NCBI GenBank assembly: GCA_009784575.1
Contig: WRBK01000007.1
Span: forward strand, 1 to 64,000
DNA from: Defluviitaleaceae bacterium
Lineage (GTDB): Bacteria; Bacillota; Clostridia; Lachnospirales; WRAX01
Length of the DNA: 64,000 bases
Direction of reading: 5' to 3'
The notes beneath the pieces are model-generated. The model made no database searches. It saw only the letters and a program-made list of their open reading frames with translations, and was not told the DNA's origin. Below, one piece after another: positions 36,337-44,581 of the stretch (its first letter is position 1; each line of letters begins with the position of its first letter). Both the position numbers and the translations under genes were made by a program.

Positions 36337-36860
36337 TGGGCAAATTGAATAACGAAAAAAATACGGACACCAACCAAGAAGACATAGCCGTTCTTGAGAA
36401 GGTTCGGGAAGAAAATAAGCAGGTGGTTCAGGATTATGAAGGTCATGCGCAGGAAGGGTATGACAAGACAGAACCTTCTACTTTTGCTGATACAATTCAT
36501 CAGCAAAATTCCCTCACGGGACTTGGTCTGTGCAACAGAATTTACGATGACTGGCTAAATACGGACAAAAGTGAGAAAAGACTGCGCAGAGCATTCATGT
36601 GGATAATTTTTATTTTTGTTATTATTCAGTTTGTCGTTGCTGTTATCCTTATGATTTCAAATCAGGAGATAAGCGATACAGTCTTTGTATCCTTCTTTGC
36701 GGCAATTCTGGTTCAATTCACAGGTGTGATTTTTGTTATGGCTAAGTATTTTTATAGTGAAAGAAGCACCAAGCCTTTAGAGGTAGTAGCGGCTCTGATA
36801 CAAACAATTGGGCAGACCAATAGGGATTATAACAACGAAAAAGAAAACGAAAAGGCATGA
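36336..36860 (+). CDS. Two-TM membrane protein paired with ImmA peptidase
   Basis: A 174-aa protein: about 85 soluble N-terminal residues rich in charge (DIAVLEKVREENKQVVQDYE), then two TM helices at about 88-110 (AFMWIIFIFVIIQFVVAVIL) and 118-140. A short C-terminal cytoplasmic helix follows (LEVVAALIQTIGQ). No family recognised. Tight coupling to a peptidase and the small 2-TM layout resemble effector/sensor membrane proteins of bacterial conflict systems. This is analogy only. Confidence 0.7.
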   Translation: MGKLNNEKNTDTNQEDIAVLEKVREENKQVVQDYEGHAQEGYDKTEPSTFADTIHQQNSLTGLGLCNRIYDDWLNTDKSEKRLRRAFMWIIFIFVIIQFVVAVILMISNQEISDTVFVSFFAAILVQFTGVIFVMAKYFYSERSTKPLEVVAALIQTIGQTNRDYNNEKENEKA

Positions 36861-36894
36861 CTGGCAAATGTTGGTCATGCCTTTTCGTTTTTTT
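36850..36894 (+). terminator. Strong intrinsic terminator of the ImmA operon
   Basis: AAAAGGCATGAC 36850-36861 and GTCATGCCTTTT 36874-36885 form a 12-base stem followed by a T-run. The stem includes the stop codon of the 2-TM gene, and its A/T flanks can also serve the convergent gene. Confidence 0.9.
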
Positions 36895-39709: not shown

Positions 39710-40633
39710 ATGGCTGAATATTTGATTGGAGAAATAATTCAGCGACTACGCAAACAAAAGGGTATATCCCAAGATGAATTGGCAGGCGCAATTTTGGATA
39801 GAGGTCATTTATCAAGAATTGAGAGCGGCAAAACAATGCCTAGCAAAATGACCATAGAGATGTTGTTTGAAAGGCTAGGCTATGACCCAAAAGCCTTTGT
39901 AGACTTTTATGTTGACAAAGAAACGGCAGAAATTCAGGTGATGATGGATGAACTCAATGGACATCTAAGGGAAAGGAGGGTTTTAGAGGCTGATATACTG
40001 ATAACAAAGCTAGAGATGCATAGAGTGTTTAAGGGAAACAAGTTATATAAGCAATATCTTTTAGTTGCCAAGGCAAGCAATGCAATTACCAAAAAAGAGC
40101 CTGATGGGGTTTTTGACATCCTTTTGGAAGCTGTGAAAATAACTATACCTACATTTAATGAAGTAGATATAGAAAAATATCTGCTTACAAAAACAGATAT
40201 CGAAATTATCAATATGATAGCTATAATGCATAAAAACAATGGCGATTTGGATAGAGCTATTAATCTCATGTATTTTTTAAAAAGAGGTTTTGATAGTCGG
40301 TATATGGATAATGCTTCAAAAGGTACTCATTATCCTCTGGCTATCTTTAATCTTACAAAATATCTAAGCTTGGCAAAAAGATATAGGGAGGCTATAGAGC
40401 TATGCGATATTGGCATGAAATTGTGCATTGATATCAGCGCATTACGTCTACTTCCGCTAATAGCACTAAATAAAGCTTATTGCTTACACGAAATTGAAGA
40501 TGATGATTCCTGTGAAAAACTCCTAAGGCAGGCATATTATACCTGTGAAATGTATGGGATGCTTAGTACAAGAAGGAAAATTAAAGTCTATGCCAAGAGC
40601 AAACTTGACATAGACTTAGGTAAGTGTATATAA
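39710..40633 (+). CDS. Rgg/RRNPP-type peptide-responsive transcription regulator
   Basis: A 307-aa protein. The N-terminal XRE helix-turn-helix (IIQRLRKQKGISQDELAGAI then GHLSRIESGKTMPS) is followed by a helical C-terminal domain of about 240 residues with TPR-like pairs (LTKYLSLAKRYREAIELCDI, LIALNKAYCLHEI). This is the architecture of Rgg, PlcR and related RRNPP regulators, which bind re-imported signal peptides. ATG 39710 with GAGGAGG was chosen. It is convergent, 14 bases apart, with a gene for a small exported peptide, and upstream of a large palindrome. These features make a peptide-sensing role likely. Confidence 0.85.
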   Translation: MAEYLIGEIIQRLRKQKGISQDELAGAILDRGHLSRIESGKTMPSKMTIEMLFERLGYDPKAFVDFYVDKETAEIQVMMDELNGHLRERRVLEADILITKLEMHRVFKGNKLYKQYLLVAKASNAITKKEPDGVFDILLEAVKITIPTFNEVDIEKYLLTKTDIEIINMIAIMHKNNGDLDRAINLMYFLKRGFDSRYMDNASKGTHYPLAIFNLTKYLSLAKRYREAIELCDIGMKLCIDISALRLLPLIALNKAYCLHEIEDDDSCEKLLRQAYYTCEMYGMLSTRRKIKVYAKSKLDIDLGKCI

Positions 40634-40647
40634 AGCACCGACTGGAG

Positions 40648-40824
40648 TCAAGGGCGCGTTATATCATCATCTTCTATAGGTGGTGTCCTTGGCGAGATGC
40701 TCTCTTGAGAGAAAACAGGAGAGGTATCGGCTTCGGCAGCCTCTACGAATATAATATTTATAGAGGCTGCCGTTACCATAAAAATTGCAACCCACGTCAA
40801 AAATCTTAACTTTATCTTTTTCAT
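40648..40824 (-). CDS. Small exported peptide, candidate quorum-sensing pheromone precursor
   Basis: A 58-aa protein starting MKKIKLRFLTWVAIFMVTAA, a textbook signal sequence (basic start, hydrophobic core). A probable cleavage site after VEAAEA leaves about 26 residues, DTSPVFSQESISPRTPPIED plus DDITRP. The ribosome site AAGGAGG is 8 bases before the ATG at 40824. It converges with the Rgg-like regulator and is divergent from a secreted-protein gene across a palindrome. This size, signal and position match RRNPP pheromone precursors (Phr, PapR, SHP types). No homologue recognised. Confidence 0.75.
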   Translation of the reverse strand: MKKIKLRFLTWVAIFMVTAASINIIFVEAAEADTSPVFSQESISPRTPPIEDDDITRP

Positions 40825-40869
40825 ACGCAAAACCTCCTTGTATATGTGATTAAACAGACACTTTGTTAA

Positions 40870-40898
40870 ATTATACATAAAAAGTGCCTTGCTGTCAT
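40870..40898 (-). promoter_or_regulatory. Promoter of the peptide gene
   Basis: Minus-strand ATGACA (complement of 40893-40898), 17 bases, TATAAT (complement of 40870-40875). The -35 box is the outer end of the left palindrome arm. Confidence 0.65.
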
Positions 40899-40953
40899 GT
40901 AGCAAATCATGCACGAAATTTGTCGATTTTCGTGCATGATTTGCTACATGACA
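40893..40953. promoter_or_regulatory. Perfect palindrome with 26-base arms: probable shared operator
   Basis: Arm 40893-40918 begins TGTCATGTAGC and ends ATGCACGAAA. Arm 40928-40953 is its exact reverse complement, with a 9-base centre at 40919-40927. Both outer ends provide -35 boxes (ATGACA) of diverging promoters. It lies between the peptide gene and the secreted-protein gene and has no T-run, so it reads as a DNA operator rather than a terminator. The nearby Rgg-like regulator is the obvious candidate to bind it. Confidence 0.85.
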
Positions 40954-40976
40954 AGAGTAATATTTTGTGGTAGTAT
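40948..40976 (+). promoter_or_regulatory. Promoter of the secreted-protein gene
   Basis: ATGACA 40948-40953, 17 bases, TAGTAT 40971-40976. It mirrors the peptide promoter. A short palindrome (ATATGG...CCATAT, 40981-41000) would lie at the very start of the transcript. Confidence 0.55.
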
Positions 40977-41036
40977 AAAAATATGGATGCGCACCCATAT
41001 TCTAGTTATCTAATAATTTTAAGGGAGGCTATAATT

Positions 41037-41594
41037 ATGATCAAAAGTATTACTAAAAAATTAAGTGTTTTATCGCTGATAGCTGTTTTTGTGTTTGTCG
41101 GCACTTTACCAGTTTATGGAAATAATACTGATGAGCTACGACTTGATAATGTTCAAATTGTCATTCAAGAGGATGAGGAAAGTATTTTTCATTTCCATAT
41201 GGATTCAAACGGTGAAATCATAGGAGTTTTGATAGTTTCAAAAGAACATGCTGGGGCAATGGAAAATAATATCAGCCCAAGATATATACCTGATGCACCT
41301 CAAAGAGGCACTAGATCTTTTCAGCACTCTTTCAACACAGGTCTTACACAGAGAGGCATCGCTTCGGATTTAGCATTTAGCTTTACTCCAAGCATTGGAC
41401 ATGCGCAATTTACAAGCGTTTTTTTCTCAAGAACAGGACTACATTCGAACTCTATAGTTATTACTGATGCAGATCGTTCGGGTAATCGCGCTTGGGTTAA
41501 CATTCGTTGCAACAACACTGGGCAAACTGGCGGGGTTGATTTTGTAGTAAATAGTGCTGGATTTGTTACAGCAACACAAAGGTCTCTAAGGTAA
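41037..41594 (+). CDS. Secreted protein of unknown function under the palindrome
   Basis: A 185-aa protein with a signal peptide (KKLSVLSLIAVFVFVGTLPV, cleavage likely after VYG). The mature region is rich in beta-prone segments (VQIVIQEDEESIFHFHMDSN, ASDLAFSFTPSIGHAQFTSV) and Asn/Thr/Ser near the C-terminus (NIRCNNTGQTGGVDFVV). No lipobox or known domain. Start ATG 41037 has GGGAGG eight to nine bases before it. It is the direct output gene of the presumed peptide-sensing operator; it might be a secreted effector, adhesin or immunity factor. Confidence 0.7.
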   Translation: MIKSITKKLSVLSLIAVFVFVGTLPVYGNNTDELRLDNVQIVIQEDEESIFHFHMDSNGEIIGVLIVSKEHAGAMENNISPRYIPDAPQRGTRSFQHSFNTGLTQRGIASDLAFSFTPSIGHAQFTSVFFSRTGLHSNSIVITDADRSGNRAWVNIRCNNTGQTGGVDFVVNSAGFVTATQRSLR

Positions 41595-41734: not shown

Positions 41735-42919
41735 ATGAAAACTAAGCGCAAGAAAACACCATTGATATCAGCTGTATTTTCATTATCAATTATGGCAGTA
41801 TTAACTTTTAGTGGTTGTGCGGATGAACAACAAGAACCTGAACAAAACTTCATAGAGGAGCAACTAGAAACAGTACAGCACATTTGGCCCATTTTTATAT
41901 TTGGCTTTGAGTCTGGCAGTTATGATGAACGCCCAACAGTCGATGATTCGAATTCATTGCATAATATGCTTTTAGGTTTTCCTAATGGCGAAATAATGGT
42001 ATCGCTACAAAGCATCCATGACTTGGATTTTGTCCAGCCATCACATGTGGAAATAATTTTTCTTGGCACATTGGATGAAATTAACGAATGGATAGCAATT
42101 AACGACAGCCCTTTCGAGATTTCACATTTTCTTTCTGAGGAGCATAGAGATTTTGGCTTAATCTACGCAGTTTATGATTATCATAGAATAGGTCAGCCGA
42201 TAGAAAGAGTTATAAGAGAGTTTGCGACACAGGAGCAACTCGAATACCATAATGTTATAATTAGCCCAGACAATTTTGAGGTTATTTTTATAGGTAAAAG
42301 AAGCGAAATAAGAGAAATTATAATGCCTTCGGACGATAATTCACAAGAAATAACCCCCACAGACTGGGTACAAGAAGCTGCGGACTATTTGATATGGCTA
42401 CGCGGGCTTGATGCCCCAGAATATGCAGAATACTTTAAAGAACAGGATGTTTCTTTATTTTTCTTTTGGGATGACAACACTTTTGAGCCTTCAAACTTTA
42501 TTTCCGTGGAGCATATCGACGATATGCTTTCGCATGAGCAAAGACGTGGTCATGCAAATGTAATAGCGGATATGATGTCGGAGTATCTTGGATATGCAGT
42601 TACAGCCGACCAAATAGGAGAATATTCGGGTAACTTTTTATTTAGTTGGCAAGATTTTGTTACGCCAGAGCAGTTCGCAATCGCAAGAGATTACCTAGAA
42701 ATCTCAGATGGCATGTTTTTTGATAATTTTATCTATCTGTATTTACACATAGCCCAACCACAAGGCATAATTGGAGAGATAATAACAAGCCTAAGAGCCG
42801 AACAACAACTAGGCACACCATCAGAATTTAACCAAAGCGACCCGTTAAGAATATTGGCTGAAATGCGCATGGGGTTTGAGGATTTTGAAAATGAATTTAG
42901 GATGAACAATATGCCATAG
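41735..42919 (+). CDS. Lipoprotein of unknown function
   Basis: A 394-aa protein with a lipoprotein signal: basic start MKTKRKKTP, hydrophobic core, and lipobox TFSGC near residue 27. The mature part is acidic and soluble. It contains a repeated pattern of short alpha/beta segments (VEIIFLGTLDEINEWIAI and FEVIFIGKRSEIREIIM), which suggests an internal duplication. No known family recognised. Ribosome site TAGGAGG. It follows the secreted-protein gene after a probable terminator, so it may be expressed separately. Confidence 0.7.
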   Translation: MKTKRKKTPLISAVFSLSIMAVLTFSGCADEQQEPEQNFIEEQLETVQHIWPIFIFGFESGSYDERPTVDDSNSLHNMLLGFPNGEIMVSLQSIHDLDFVQPSHVEIIFLGTLDEINEWIAINDSPFEISHFLSEEHRDFGLIYAVYDYHRIGQPIERVIREFATQEQLEYHNVIISPDNFEVIFIGKRSEIREIIMPSDDNSQEITPTDWVQEAADYLIWLRGLDAPEYAEYFKEQDVSLFFFWDDNTFEPSNFISVEHIDDMLSHEQRRGHANVIADMMSEYLGYAVTADQIGEYSGNFLFSWQDFVTPEQFAIARDYLEISDGMFFDNFIYLYLHIAQPQGIIGEIITSLRAEQQLGTPSEFNQSDPLRILAEMRMGFEDFENEFRMNNMP

Positions 42920-43031: not shown

Positions 43032-43060
43032 TTGACAAAGAGCGCACACCTTGATACAAT
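43032..43060 (+). promoter_or_regulatory. Strong promoter of the RiPP operon
   Basis: TTGACA 43032-43037, 17 bases, TACAAT 43055-43060: a near-consensus sigma-A promoter, about 45 bases before the precursor start. Confidence 0.8.
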
Positions 43061-43109: not shown

Positions 43110-43193
43110 ATGGAGATTAAGAAATCTGTGGTGATTCCTGTTATCCCTTTGTCAAATAATTGTCAATGCACCAATGAGTGTCCTTCTGGTTAG
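43110..43193 (+). CDS. Three-cysteine RiPP precursor peptide
   Basis: A 27-aa peptide. The leader-like part is MEIKKSVVIPVIPLS and the core is NNCQCTNECPSG. Cys residues at 18, 20 and 24 are followed by a short Pro-Ser-Gly end. The ribosome site AAGGAGG (43094-43100) is 9 bases from ATG 43110; a competing ATG at 43103 opens only five codons and is too close. It is directly followed by radical SAM/SPASM and ABC exporter genes, so it should be a ribosomally made peptide with radical-SAM-installed (for example thioether) crosslinks. It may belong to a known small Cys-rich clostridial peptide group. Confidence 0.8.
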   Translation: MEIKKSVVIPVIPLSNNCQCTNECPSG

Positions 43194-43223: not shown

Positions 43224-43282
43224 TATCAAAATAAACTAACACTTGATACATTGTTTATTTCAAGTGTTAGTTTATTTTGATA
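43224..43282 (+). terminator. Large hairpin between precursor and maturase: partial terminator/attenuator
   Basis: The 23-base arms 43224-43246 (TATCAAAATAAACTAACAC...) and 43260-43282 are exact inverted copies around a 13-base loop. The inner, more stable part (CTAACACTTGA) is followed by the T-rich outer right arm TTTATTTTGATA, as in a bidirectional intrinsic terminator. Placed after a precursor gene it would limit read-through and give more peptide than enzyme, as in many bacteriocin operons. Confidence 0.75.
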
Positions 43283-43311: not shown

Positions 43312-43644
43312 GTGCAGTTTATTTTTTCTAGCTTTATAGATATTAGTGAAGATCAGGAAACAATTTCAATCAAATCATACAAAACAGGCTCAACCATTAA
43401 TCTTTTTGAGGATTTATACATTTCGGAATTCAGAAATATACAAGAAGCAAAAGGCGTACAAACGATAGAATCCGAACTATGTAAAGCACTCTACGAGGAA
43501 GGTATGTTGATTCATTCAGATGAAAGCGAAACTGAATTCTTTTGGGATTATGTTAAAAACAATGATGATCATACCTTAGGTCTAATCATTCTTCCTACTG
43601 AATCATGCAATTTAAGATGCGTATACTGTTATGAAGATATTTGA
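43312..43644 (+). pseudogene. Radical SAM/SPASM peptide maturase, N-terminal part (frameshifted)
   Basis: A 110-aa frame from GTG 43312 (AGGAGG eight bases before). It holds a helical N-terminal region and then LGLIILPTESCNLRCVYCYE, which contains the CxxxCxxC that binds the catalytic 4Fe-4S cluster and SAM (near residues 99-106). The frame ends at TGA 43642-43644 just after CYEDI. The rest of the protein continues in the +1 frame; dropping one base near 43640 gives CYEDFDARELSDVHYD, the normal continuation. Alone this piece cannot be active. Confidence 0.8.
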
Positions 43645-44581
43645 TGCTCGAGAACTATCTGATGTTCATTATGATGTGCTTTATGATTTAATTAAGAACA
43701 GAATTGATGCTGGAATCAAAAACTTGTGCATCTCATGGTTTGGAGGCGAGCCTCTGTTAAAACACAAAGAATTATTAAAATTTAGCAGCAAAGTGATGGA
43801 TTTAGTTGATTTGAAGAACATCAATTTTGTAGGAGGAATGACCACGAACGGTGTCGTGCTTGATACTGAGATTTTTAATAAGCTTGTTTCGGCTGGCATT
43901 AGAAATTATCAGATAACGCTGGATGGTTTTTCGCATGATAAGCAACGCATCTTTAAGGGTGGAAGAGGCTCTTTTGATATTATACATAAAAATATTATTA
44001 ACATACTCAAAACAGATATTGACTTTGAATTAGTATTGAGAGTTAATATCTCTAAAAAAGAGTTTGACTTTAGGTTCTATGATTTATTCAAAGAATTTGT
44101 TGATGACAAAAGGCTTATATTCTTAATAAAAGCGATTGAGCGGTGGAGCGACAAAGAAATAGAGATACCTATATTTAAGAGTGCAAACGAAGCTACAAAA
44201 GAGATTAAAAAGCATCATGCATATATAAAAGAAATGGGATTAAAGCTTTATGCAGCAGAAAAAGAAGGGTTTTTGTGTTTTTCATGCCATGCTGCAAGTC
44301 CTAGCTACTATGTCATTAGGGGCGACGGCACGATTTGCAAATGTACAGTAGTATTGGGCGATGATATTAACTCAATAGGGCGCATTAATTTGAATAATAA
44401 AAACTTGGAGATAGACGAACATAAAATGAGGAGATGGACAGATATGCCGATAAATCAAGAGTGCAGAACGTGCTCTCTCCTTTATAAGTGTTTTAACCGT
44501 GCTTGCCCCTTGGCTAGGATAAAATACGGAAATGACTCCTGTACAGTGTTCAACTCATTGCGCGATAGAAATGAGGTGTAG
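43631..44581 (+). pseudogene. Radical SAM/SPASM peptide maturase, C-terminal part (frameshifted)
   Basis: A 316-aa frame carrying the rest of the radical SAM barrel (LCISWFGGEPLL, FVGGMTTNGVVLD, YQITLDGFSHDKQR, FELVLRVNISK) and a SPASM domain with Cys residues in FSCHAAS, ICKC, CRTCSLLYKC and NRACPLA. The internal ATG 43631 has no ribosome site, so it is expressed only if the ribosome shifts frame or the frameshift is a sequence error. The whole protein would be about 422 aa, normal for peptide-modifying SPASM enzymes. It ends 6 bases before the exporter gene. Confidence 0.85.

Follow-up and report, generated by a model that had tools for sequence, protein, structure and literature searches.

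In the window (the whole 64,000-nucleotide stretch of DNA that was analysed), a 61-bp palindrome whose two ends are the -35 boxes of mirror-image promoters separates a small gene for a putative secreted propeptide from one whose protein is predicted to be secreted. We consider it very probable that this palindrome is the operator of the RRNPP (PlcR-like) receptor encoded at 39710, and that it would jointly switch the signal gene and the target. This reading draws on the class of the receptor, the convergent propeptide gene, the recurrence of the palindrome together with its mirror-image promoters beside related receptors, and the multiple copies present in two relatives.

The palindrome and its two promoters

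The features of the region are as follows.

39710..40633, plus strand: RRNPP-type receptor/regulator with N-terminal HTH_3 and C-terminal TPR (RNPP_C-like), PlcR-like fold
40648..40824, minus strand: unannotated gene of a 58-aa secreted propeptide, converging on the regulator gene; likely signal-peptide precursor
40833..40839, minus strand: perfect Shine-Dalgarno sequence AAGGAGG of the propeptide gene (read from the sequence)
40870..40875, minus strand: -10 box TATAAT of the propeptide promoter, 17 bp from the -35 box (sequence and symmetric-promoter test)
40893..40898, minus strand: -35 box ATGACA of the propeptide promoter, outer end of the left arm
40893..40918, no strand: left arm of the palindromic candidate operator, with core AGCAAATCAnGCAC
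40919..40927, no strand: unpaired centre of the palindrome, 9 bp
40928..40953, no strand: right arm of the palindromic candidate operator
40948..40953, plus strand: -35 box ATGACA of the divergent promoter, outer end of the right arm
40971..40976, plus strand: -10 box TAGTAT, extended (TGgTAGTAT), of the divergent promoter, 17 bp from the -35 box
41037..41594, plus strand: divergent target, 185-aa protein with signal-peptide-like start and Shine-Dalgarno sequence AAGGGAGG
41735..42919, plus strand: lipoprotein-like ORF with lipobox-like FSGC, downstream of the target

The two arms are complementary at 26/26 positions around the 9-nt unpaired spacer, an arrangement whose expected number in 64 kb, given the base composition, is about 8e-10, and they form the longest perfect inverted repeat of the window, the runners-up having arms of 23 bp (43224-43282) and 18 bp (36844-36891). 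A preliminary description of this DNA had presented the arms as exact reverse complements that read ATGACA outward at both ends, 17 bases from the -10 boxes, and every one of these coordinates proved exact. It had also named a search of the genome for further copies of the arm, and a dispersed repeat at unrelated sites as the outcome that would speak against its proposal. In the host genome (a 1.84 Mb draft, 81% complete), whole-genome BLAST found the 161-bp palindrome region only once. Half-arms were matched only with 2-3 mismatches, 30 times (two of these being the palindrome itself) against 8 for a reversed control pattern, and since they outnumber the control, weaker half-sites may be present elsewhere in this genome.

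Two impressions of finer structure within the arms were discarded. A dyad inside each arm, corresponding to one dimer per arm, seemed plausible by eye and failed a shuffle test (mean z 0.01), and a direct 12-bp repeat seen by eye within the arm of the window is indistinct in the orthologue.

The receptor, the propeptide and the divergent target

The N-terminal HTH domain of RRNPP receptors is present in the 39710 protein (Pfam HTH_3, 1.3e-10, above the cut-off), while the match to RNPP_C (2.7e-5, 24.2 bits) stays under the Pfam cut-off of 26.5. The best full-length match in the PDB for a profile of its relatives is PlcR (2.2e-17), and a Foldseek search with the AF2 model (pLDDT 87) gave the PlcR:PapR:DNA complex 3u3w first (TM 0.67), with ComR and Rgg2 next; therefore, despite the sub-threshold RNPP_C match, the model and its fold matches show a C-terminal TPR domain of the RNPP type. 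As judged from these profile and predicted-fold matches, the 39710 product is an RRNPP-type quorum-sensing receptor.

The minus-strand promoter faces the propeptide gene at 40648-40824, which is absent from the preliminary description. Its product begins with a KK-hydrophobic leader and a signal-peptide-like start, MKKIKLRFLTWVAIFMVTAASINIIFVEAAEADTSPVFSQESISPRTPPIEDDDITRP, which predicts secretion, and ends in PRTPPIEDDDITRP, while its stop lies about 15 nt from the stop of the regulator on the opposite strand, tail to tail. A 58-aa ORF with a Shine-Dalgarno sequence and a hydrophobic leader is the adjacent small secreted propeptide gene of RRNPP systems, and since both its look and its location are as expected for such a propeptide, 40648-40824 is likely the gene of a signal-peptide precursor.

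The plus-strand promoter faces 41037-41594, the product of which is predicted to be secreted and is without a Pfam family. The lipoprotein-like ORF at 41735-42919 is possibly part of the same transcript, and a terminator-like GC-rich hairpin follows it.

Further downstream, behind a TTGACA-17-TACAAT promoter (43032-43060), a 27-aa ORF at 43110-43193 (by-eye read MEIKKSVVIPVIPLSNNCQCTNECPSG) precedes radical SAM and ABC transporter genes, which could together form a RiPP-like cluster. The radical SAM gene (43312-44581) is split into two overlapping ORFs, 43312-43644 and 43631-44581, by a frameshift or a sequence error. The second perfect palindrome of the window, at 43224-43282 (23-bp arms, 13-bp loop), lies between a short Cys-rich ORF and the radical SAM gene, and is more likely an mRNA stem because it is located inside the presumed transcript.

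Recurrence beside related receptors

Related receptors were gathered from the same order, and 81 of them had enough flanking sequence. A convergent secreted small ORF occupies the matching place in 31/81, and in 19 of these 31 propeptide loci a palindrome with a score of at least 15 has its centre 70-125 bp upstream of the propeptide ATG, the remaining 12 being without a clear one. Among control ORFs of the same loci such a palindrome was found in 15/350, where seven of the 15 are the divergent genes of the very same palindromes; when these are dropped, the controls come to 8/343 (about 2%; Fisher 6e-18 against 19/31). The promoter scoring and the propeptide filter are our own heuristics and were tuned partly on the same loci; only a follow-up set of 13 loci was gathered later: six of its 13 loci have a palindrome at a score of at least 13 (slightly below the threshold of the main set), and there is additionally one palindrome with a score of 33 at 145 bp.

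The recurring palindromes have arms of 20-34 bp with near-perfect symmetry and central loops of 0-23 bp, and their sequences differ between loci. They come from several genera, the named relatives being Defluviitaleaceae and Clostridiales MAGs, some of which are probably termite-gut MAGs, judging from the isolate names of several of them (cf. PMC7024585). No long palindrome was present in distant relatives from another family of the class, some of which have convergent propeptides; therefore, the palindrome belongs to a clade and not to all RRNPP receptors, and we rejected it as a universal feature of this class. No relatives were found on viral contigs.

At many homologous loci the divergent genes encode secreted proteins. 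Others encode a radical SAM enzyme (L203), DUF6514 proteins (L073, L075), an ABC transporter part by our by-eye judgement (L067), and, in L066, a protein weakly similar to DUF5085, of which L069 has a homologue. The host genome itself has a second system on contig C27 (L075, 539-607 and 677-844), with a receptor, a convergent propeptide ending in GEPSPPPG and a different palindrome.

When the palindromes are aligned on their centres, the outer ends of the arms overlap -35-like hexamers (ATGACA, CAGACA, TGGACA, TTGTTA), and -10-like hexamers follow 16-18 bp beyond them on both sides, as in L059 (CAGACA-17-TAAAAT and CAGACA-17-TATGAT). The summed promoter score of the 42 sides is 424.6, compared with 315 +/- 8 when the flanks outside the palindromes are permuted with dinucleotides kept, and p <= 0.1 was reached by 13/21 propeptide sides and 19/21 divergent sides. 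This means that the symmetric divergent promoters, which had been proposed for the window, are a recurring design.

In the closest orthologue (L038, 47% identity) the arm core is retained, and its distance from the centre is unchanged. In L069, L203 and L052 the palindromes differ, and the changes occur jointly in both arms. Similarity of the palindromes correlates with similarity of the receptors (Mantel r 0.25 for the HTH and 0.44 for the TPR domain); since the value is higher for the TPR domain, the correlation may reflect shared ancestry and not DNA recognition. This covariation fits a cognate pair, and plain shared ancestry too. Two relatives have several copies, which mostly precede secreted-protein genes: G082 has three copies of its own palindrome in a 5-kb stretch, their arms varied and the promoters kept, and G041 has five identical copies, whose conserved common flanks suggest duplicated promoter segments.

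Separately, over 20 related ORFs with lengths of 576-722 aa (L042, L049, L274, L275, L284, L286 and others) encode a single polypeptide with two fused receptor modules, an arrangement of which we found no report in a brief literature search. The two HTHs, in those ORFs that show both, are only 12-32% identical to each other, and the nearby palindromes are still symmetric. L274 and L275, from two genera, have a common arm CCATGACGTTTTTGGAGA and differ by about 14 bp in the spacing between the arms, as though each arm were a unit of its own.

Proposed function and alternatives

These comparisons strongly support the view that the 39710 regulator has one operator serving both promoters. Binding by the receptor, processing and import of the peptide and positive feedback are what we infer beyond it. 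To hypothesize, 40648-40824 would yield a secreted propeptide, a processed C-terminal piece of which would re-enter the cell and bind the TPR domain of the receptor, while the HTH domains would read the two identical arms and the bound receptor would alter the access of sigma-A to the two embedded -35 boxes. Since the arms end in the -35 boxes of mirror-image promoters, both promoters would change at once, and a single binding event could shift the signal gene (feedback) and the secreted-protein gene at 41037 (output). Activation by a peptide-bound receptor is the mode of PlcR and ComR, and relief of repression that of Rgg3; either would yield positive feedback here.

The preliminary description had one dimer bound at the centre switching both promoters together. 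Palindromes in the same place and back-to-back -35 boxes in relatives favour the shared operator, but a dimer at the centre is not supported in that form: the centre is unpaired and variable (loops of 0-23 bp), and it is the arms that are conserved. One dimer spanning both arms, as in AimR, or two dimers would both be possible. A point against the operator reading is that arms of 26 bp exceed what one HTH should need, with no dyad inside them. The single copy in this genome, the 12 propeptide loci with no clear palindrome and its absence from the distant relatives count against it too. A distinct operator class, with a long and almost perfectly self-complementary site in which more than one HTH occupies each arm (two dimers or a tetramer), the mirror promoters are strictly co-regulated and fused receptors are served as well, is a suggestion that we regard as rather doubtful. 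If it is true, the fused two-module receptors of related bacteria, with their diverged HTH-TPR modules, use a site that is still symmetric.

It seems quite unlikely that the palindrome is the operator of another regulator and lies beside the RRNPP receptor by coincidence. The host genome does offer candidates, with two further related receptors and other HTH proteins, but palindromes that differ in sequence occupy the corresponding position next to related receptors of many genera, and they vary in step with the receptor.

We consider it very unlikely that the palindrome acts through its folding in DNA or RNA (as a cruciform switch, an attenuator or an mRNA stem) and not as a protein site. Near-perfect symmetry across arms of 20-34 bp would suit such a role, as would the single-strand DNA hairpin of the palindrome (-29.9 kcal/mol, z -11), which makes the cruciform raised in the preliminary description physically possible, although nothing requires it. 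However, neither transcript includes the palindrome, since the -35 boxes form its ends, there is no T run directly beside it on either side, as would follow the GC-rich stem of an intrinsic terminator, the central loops vary, and sites 2 and 3 of G082 retain their promoters despite mismatches in the arms. Rfam gave for the palindrome region only sub-threshold matches to eukaryotic miRNA-type hairpins, for which reason an RNA family identity was rejected.

A mobile or repeated palindromic element (REP/MITE-like), which the five identical copies with conserved flanks in G041 might suggest, or a bidirectional terminator is highly improbable and already largely refuted, since the host genome has one copy, the position is kept while sequences differ between loci, and the palindrome lies between divergent promoters and not at convergent gene ends.

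As the operator of its receptor, the palindrome would represent a compact design, in which one site serves both the signal and the output promoter. Operators of RRNPP receptors are known for few systems only, and the signature of a receptor, a convergent propeptide and a long palindrome with -35 boxes at both ends could be used for finding operators, signal genes and first targets from sequence, with no need of experiments. The series of receptor-palindrome pairs assembled in this analysis additionally makes HTH specificity testable in this receptor family, and the system is a pointer to peptide signalling in uncultured Clostridia.

Comparison with known systems

Regarding architecture, the open-access literature gave no report of 50-70 bp palindromes in which the -35 boxes of a mirror-image promoter pair are embedded, and the passages searched in RRNPP surveys describe none.

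PlcR-PapR of the Bacillus cereus group resembles the present system in the HTH and TPR fold and the neighbouring secreted propeptide gene, and also in a regulon rich in secreted proteins and in a sigma-A -10 box downstream of the boxes (PMC2464732). The PlcR box, wTATGnAwwwwTnCATAw, is 18 bp long, and where it lies between divergent genes its control may extend to just one of the two (PMC2464732), whereas here both -35 boxes are part of a 61-bp palindrome. On inspection of the sequence the PlcR box TATGnAnnnnTnCATA is absent from 40860-40980, so that this mark of a PlcR orthologue is missing.

The operator of AimR in phage SPbeta (arbitrium) is an inverted repeat of 6-25-6 (37 bp) with a tolerant central spacer, and is thus likewise a long, spacer-tolerant inverted repeat bound by an RRNPP receptor (PMC6458997). 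The repeat is limited there to the 6-bp ends around a non-repeated 25-bp spacer, while here it takes up whole arms of 20-26 bp (26 bp in the window, around a 9-bp centre), and AimR belongs, according to extracts of PMC12700828, to the nine-TPR clan, unlike the 39710 receptor.

In streptococci, RopB with LCP and ComR/ComS likewise have a receptor whose palindromic binding site precedes the signal gene, with a 9-7-9 RopB site and a 12-4-12 RopBss site (extracts of PMC10518010) and positive feedback on comS (extracts of PMC6703854). Those sites measure about 25-28 bp and are not described in these extracts as mirror promoters with -35 boxes in the arms. On the sequence evidence, the RRNPP system of the window is of an already known type, and, as far as the open-access literature covered goes, the architecture of its putative operator is new.
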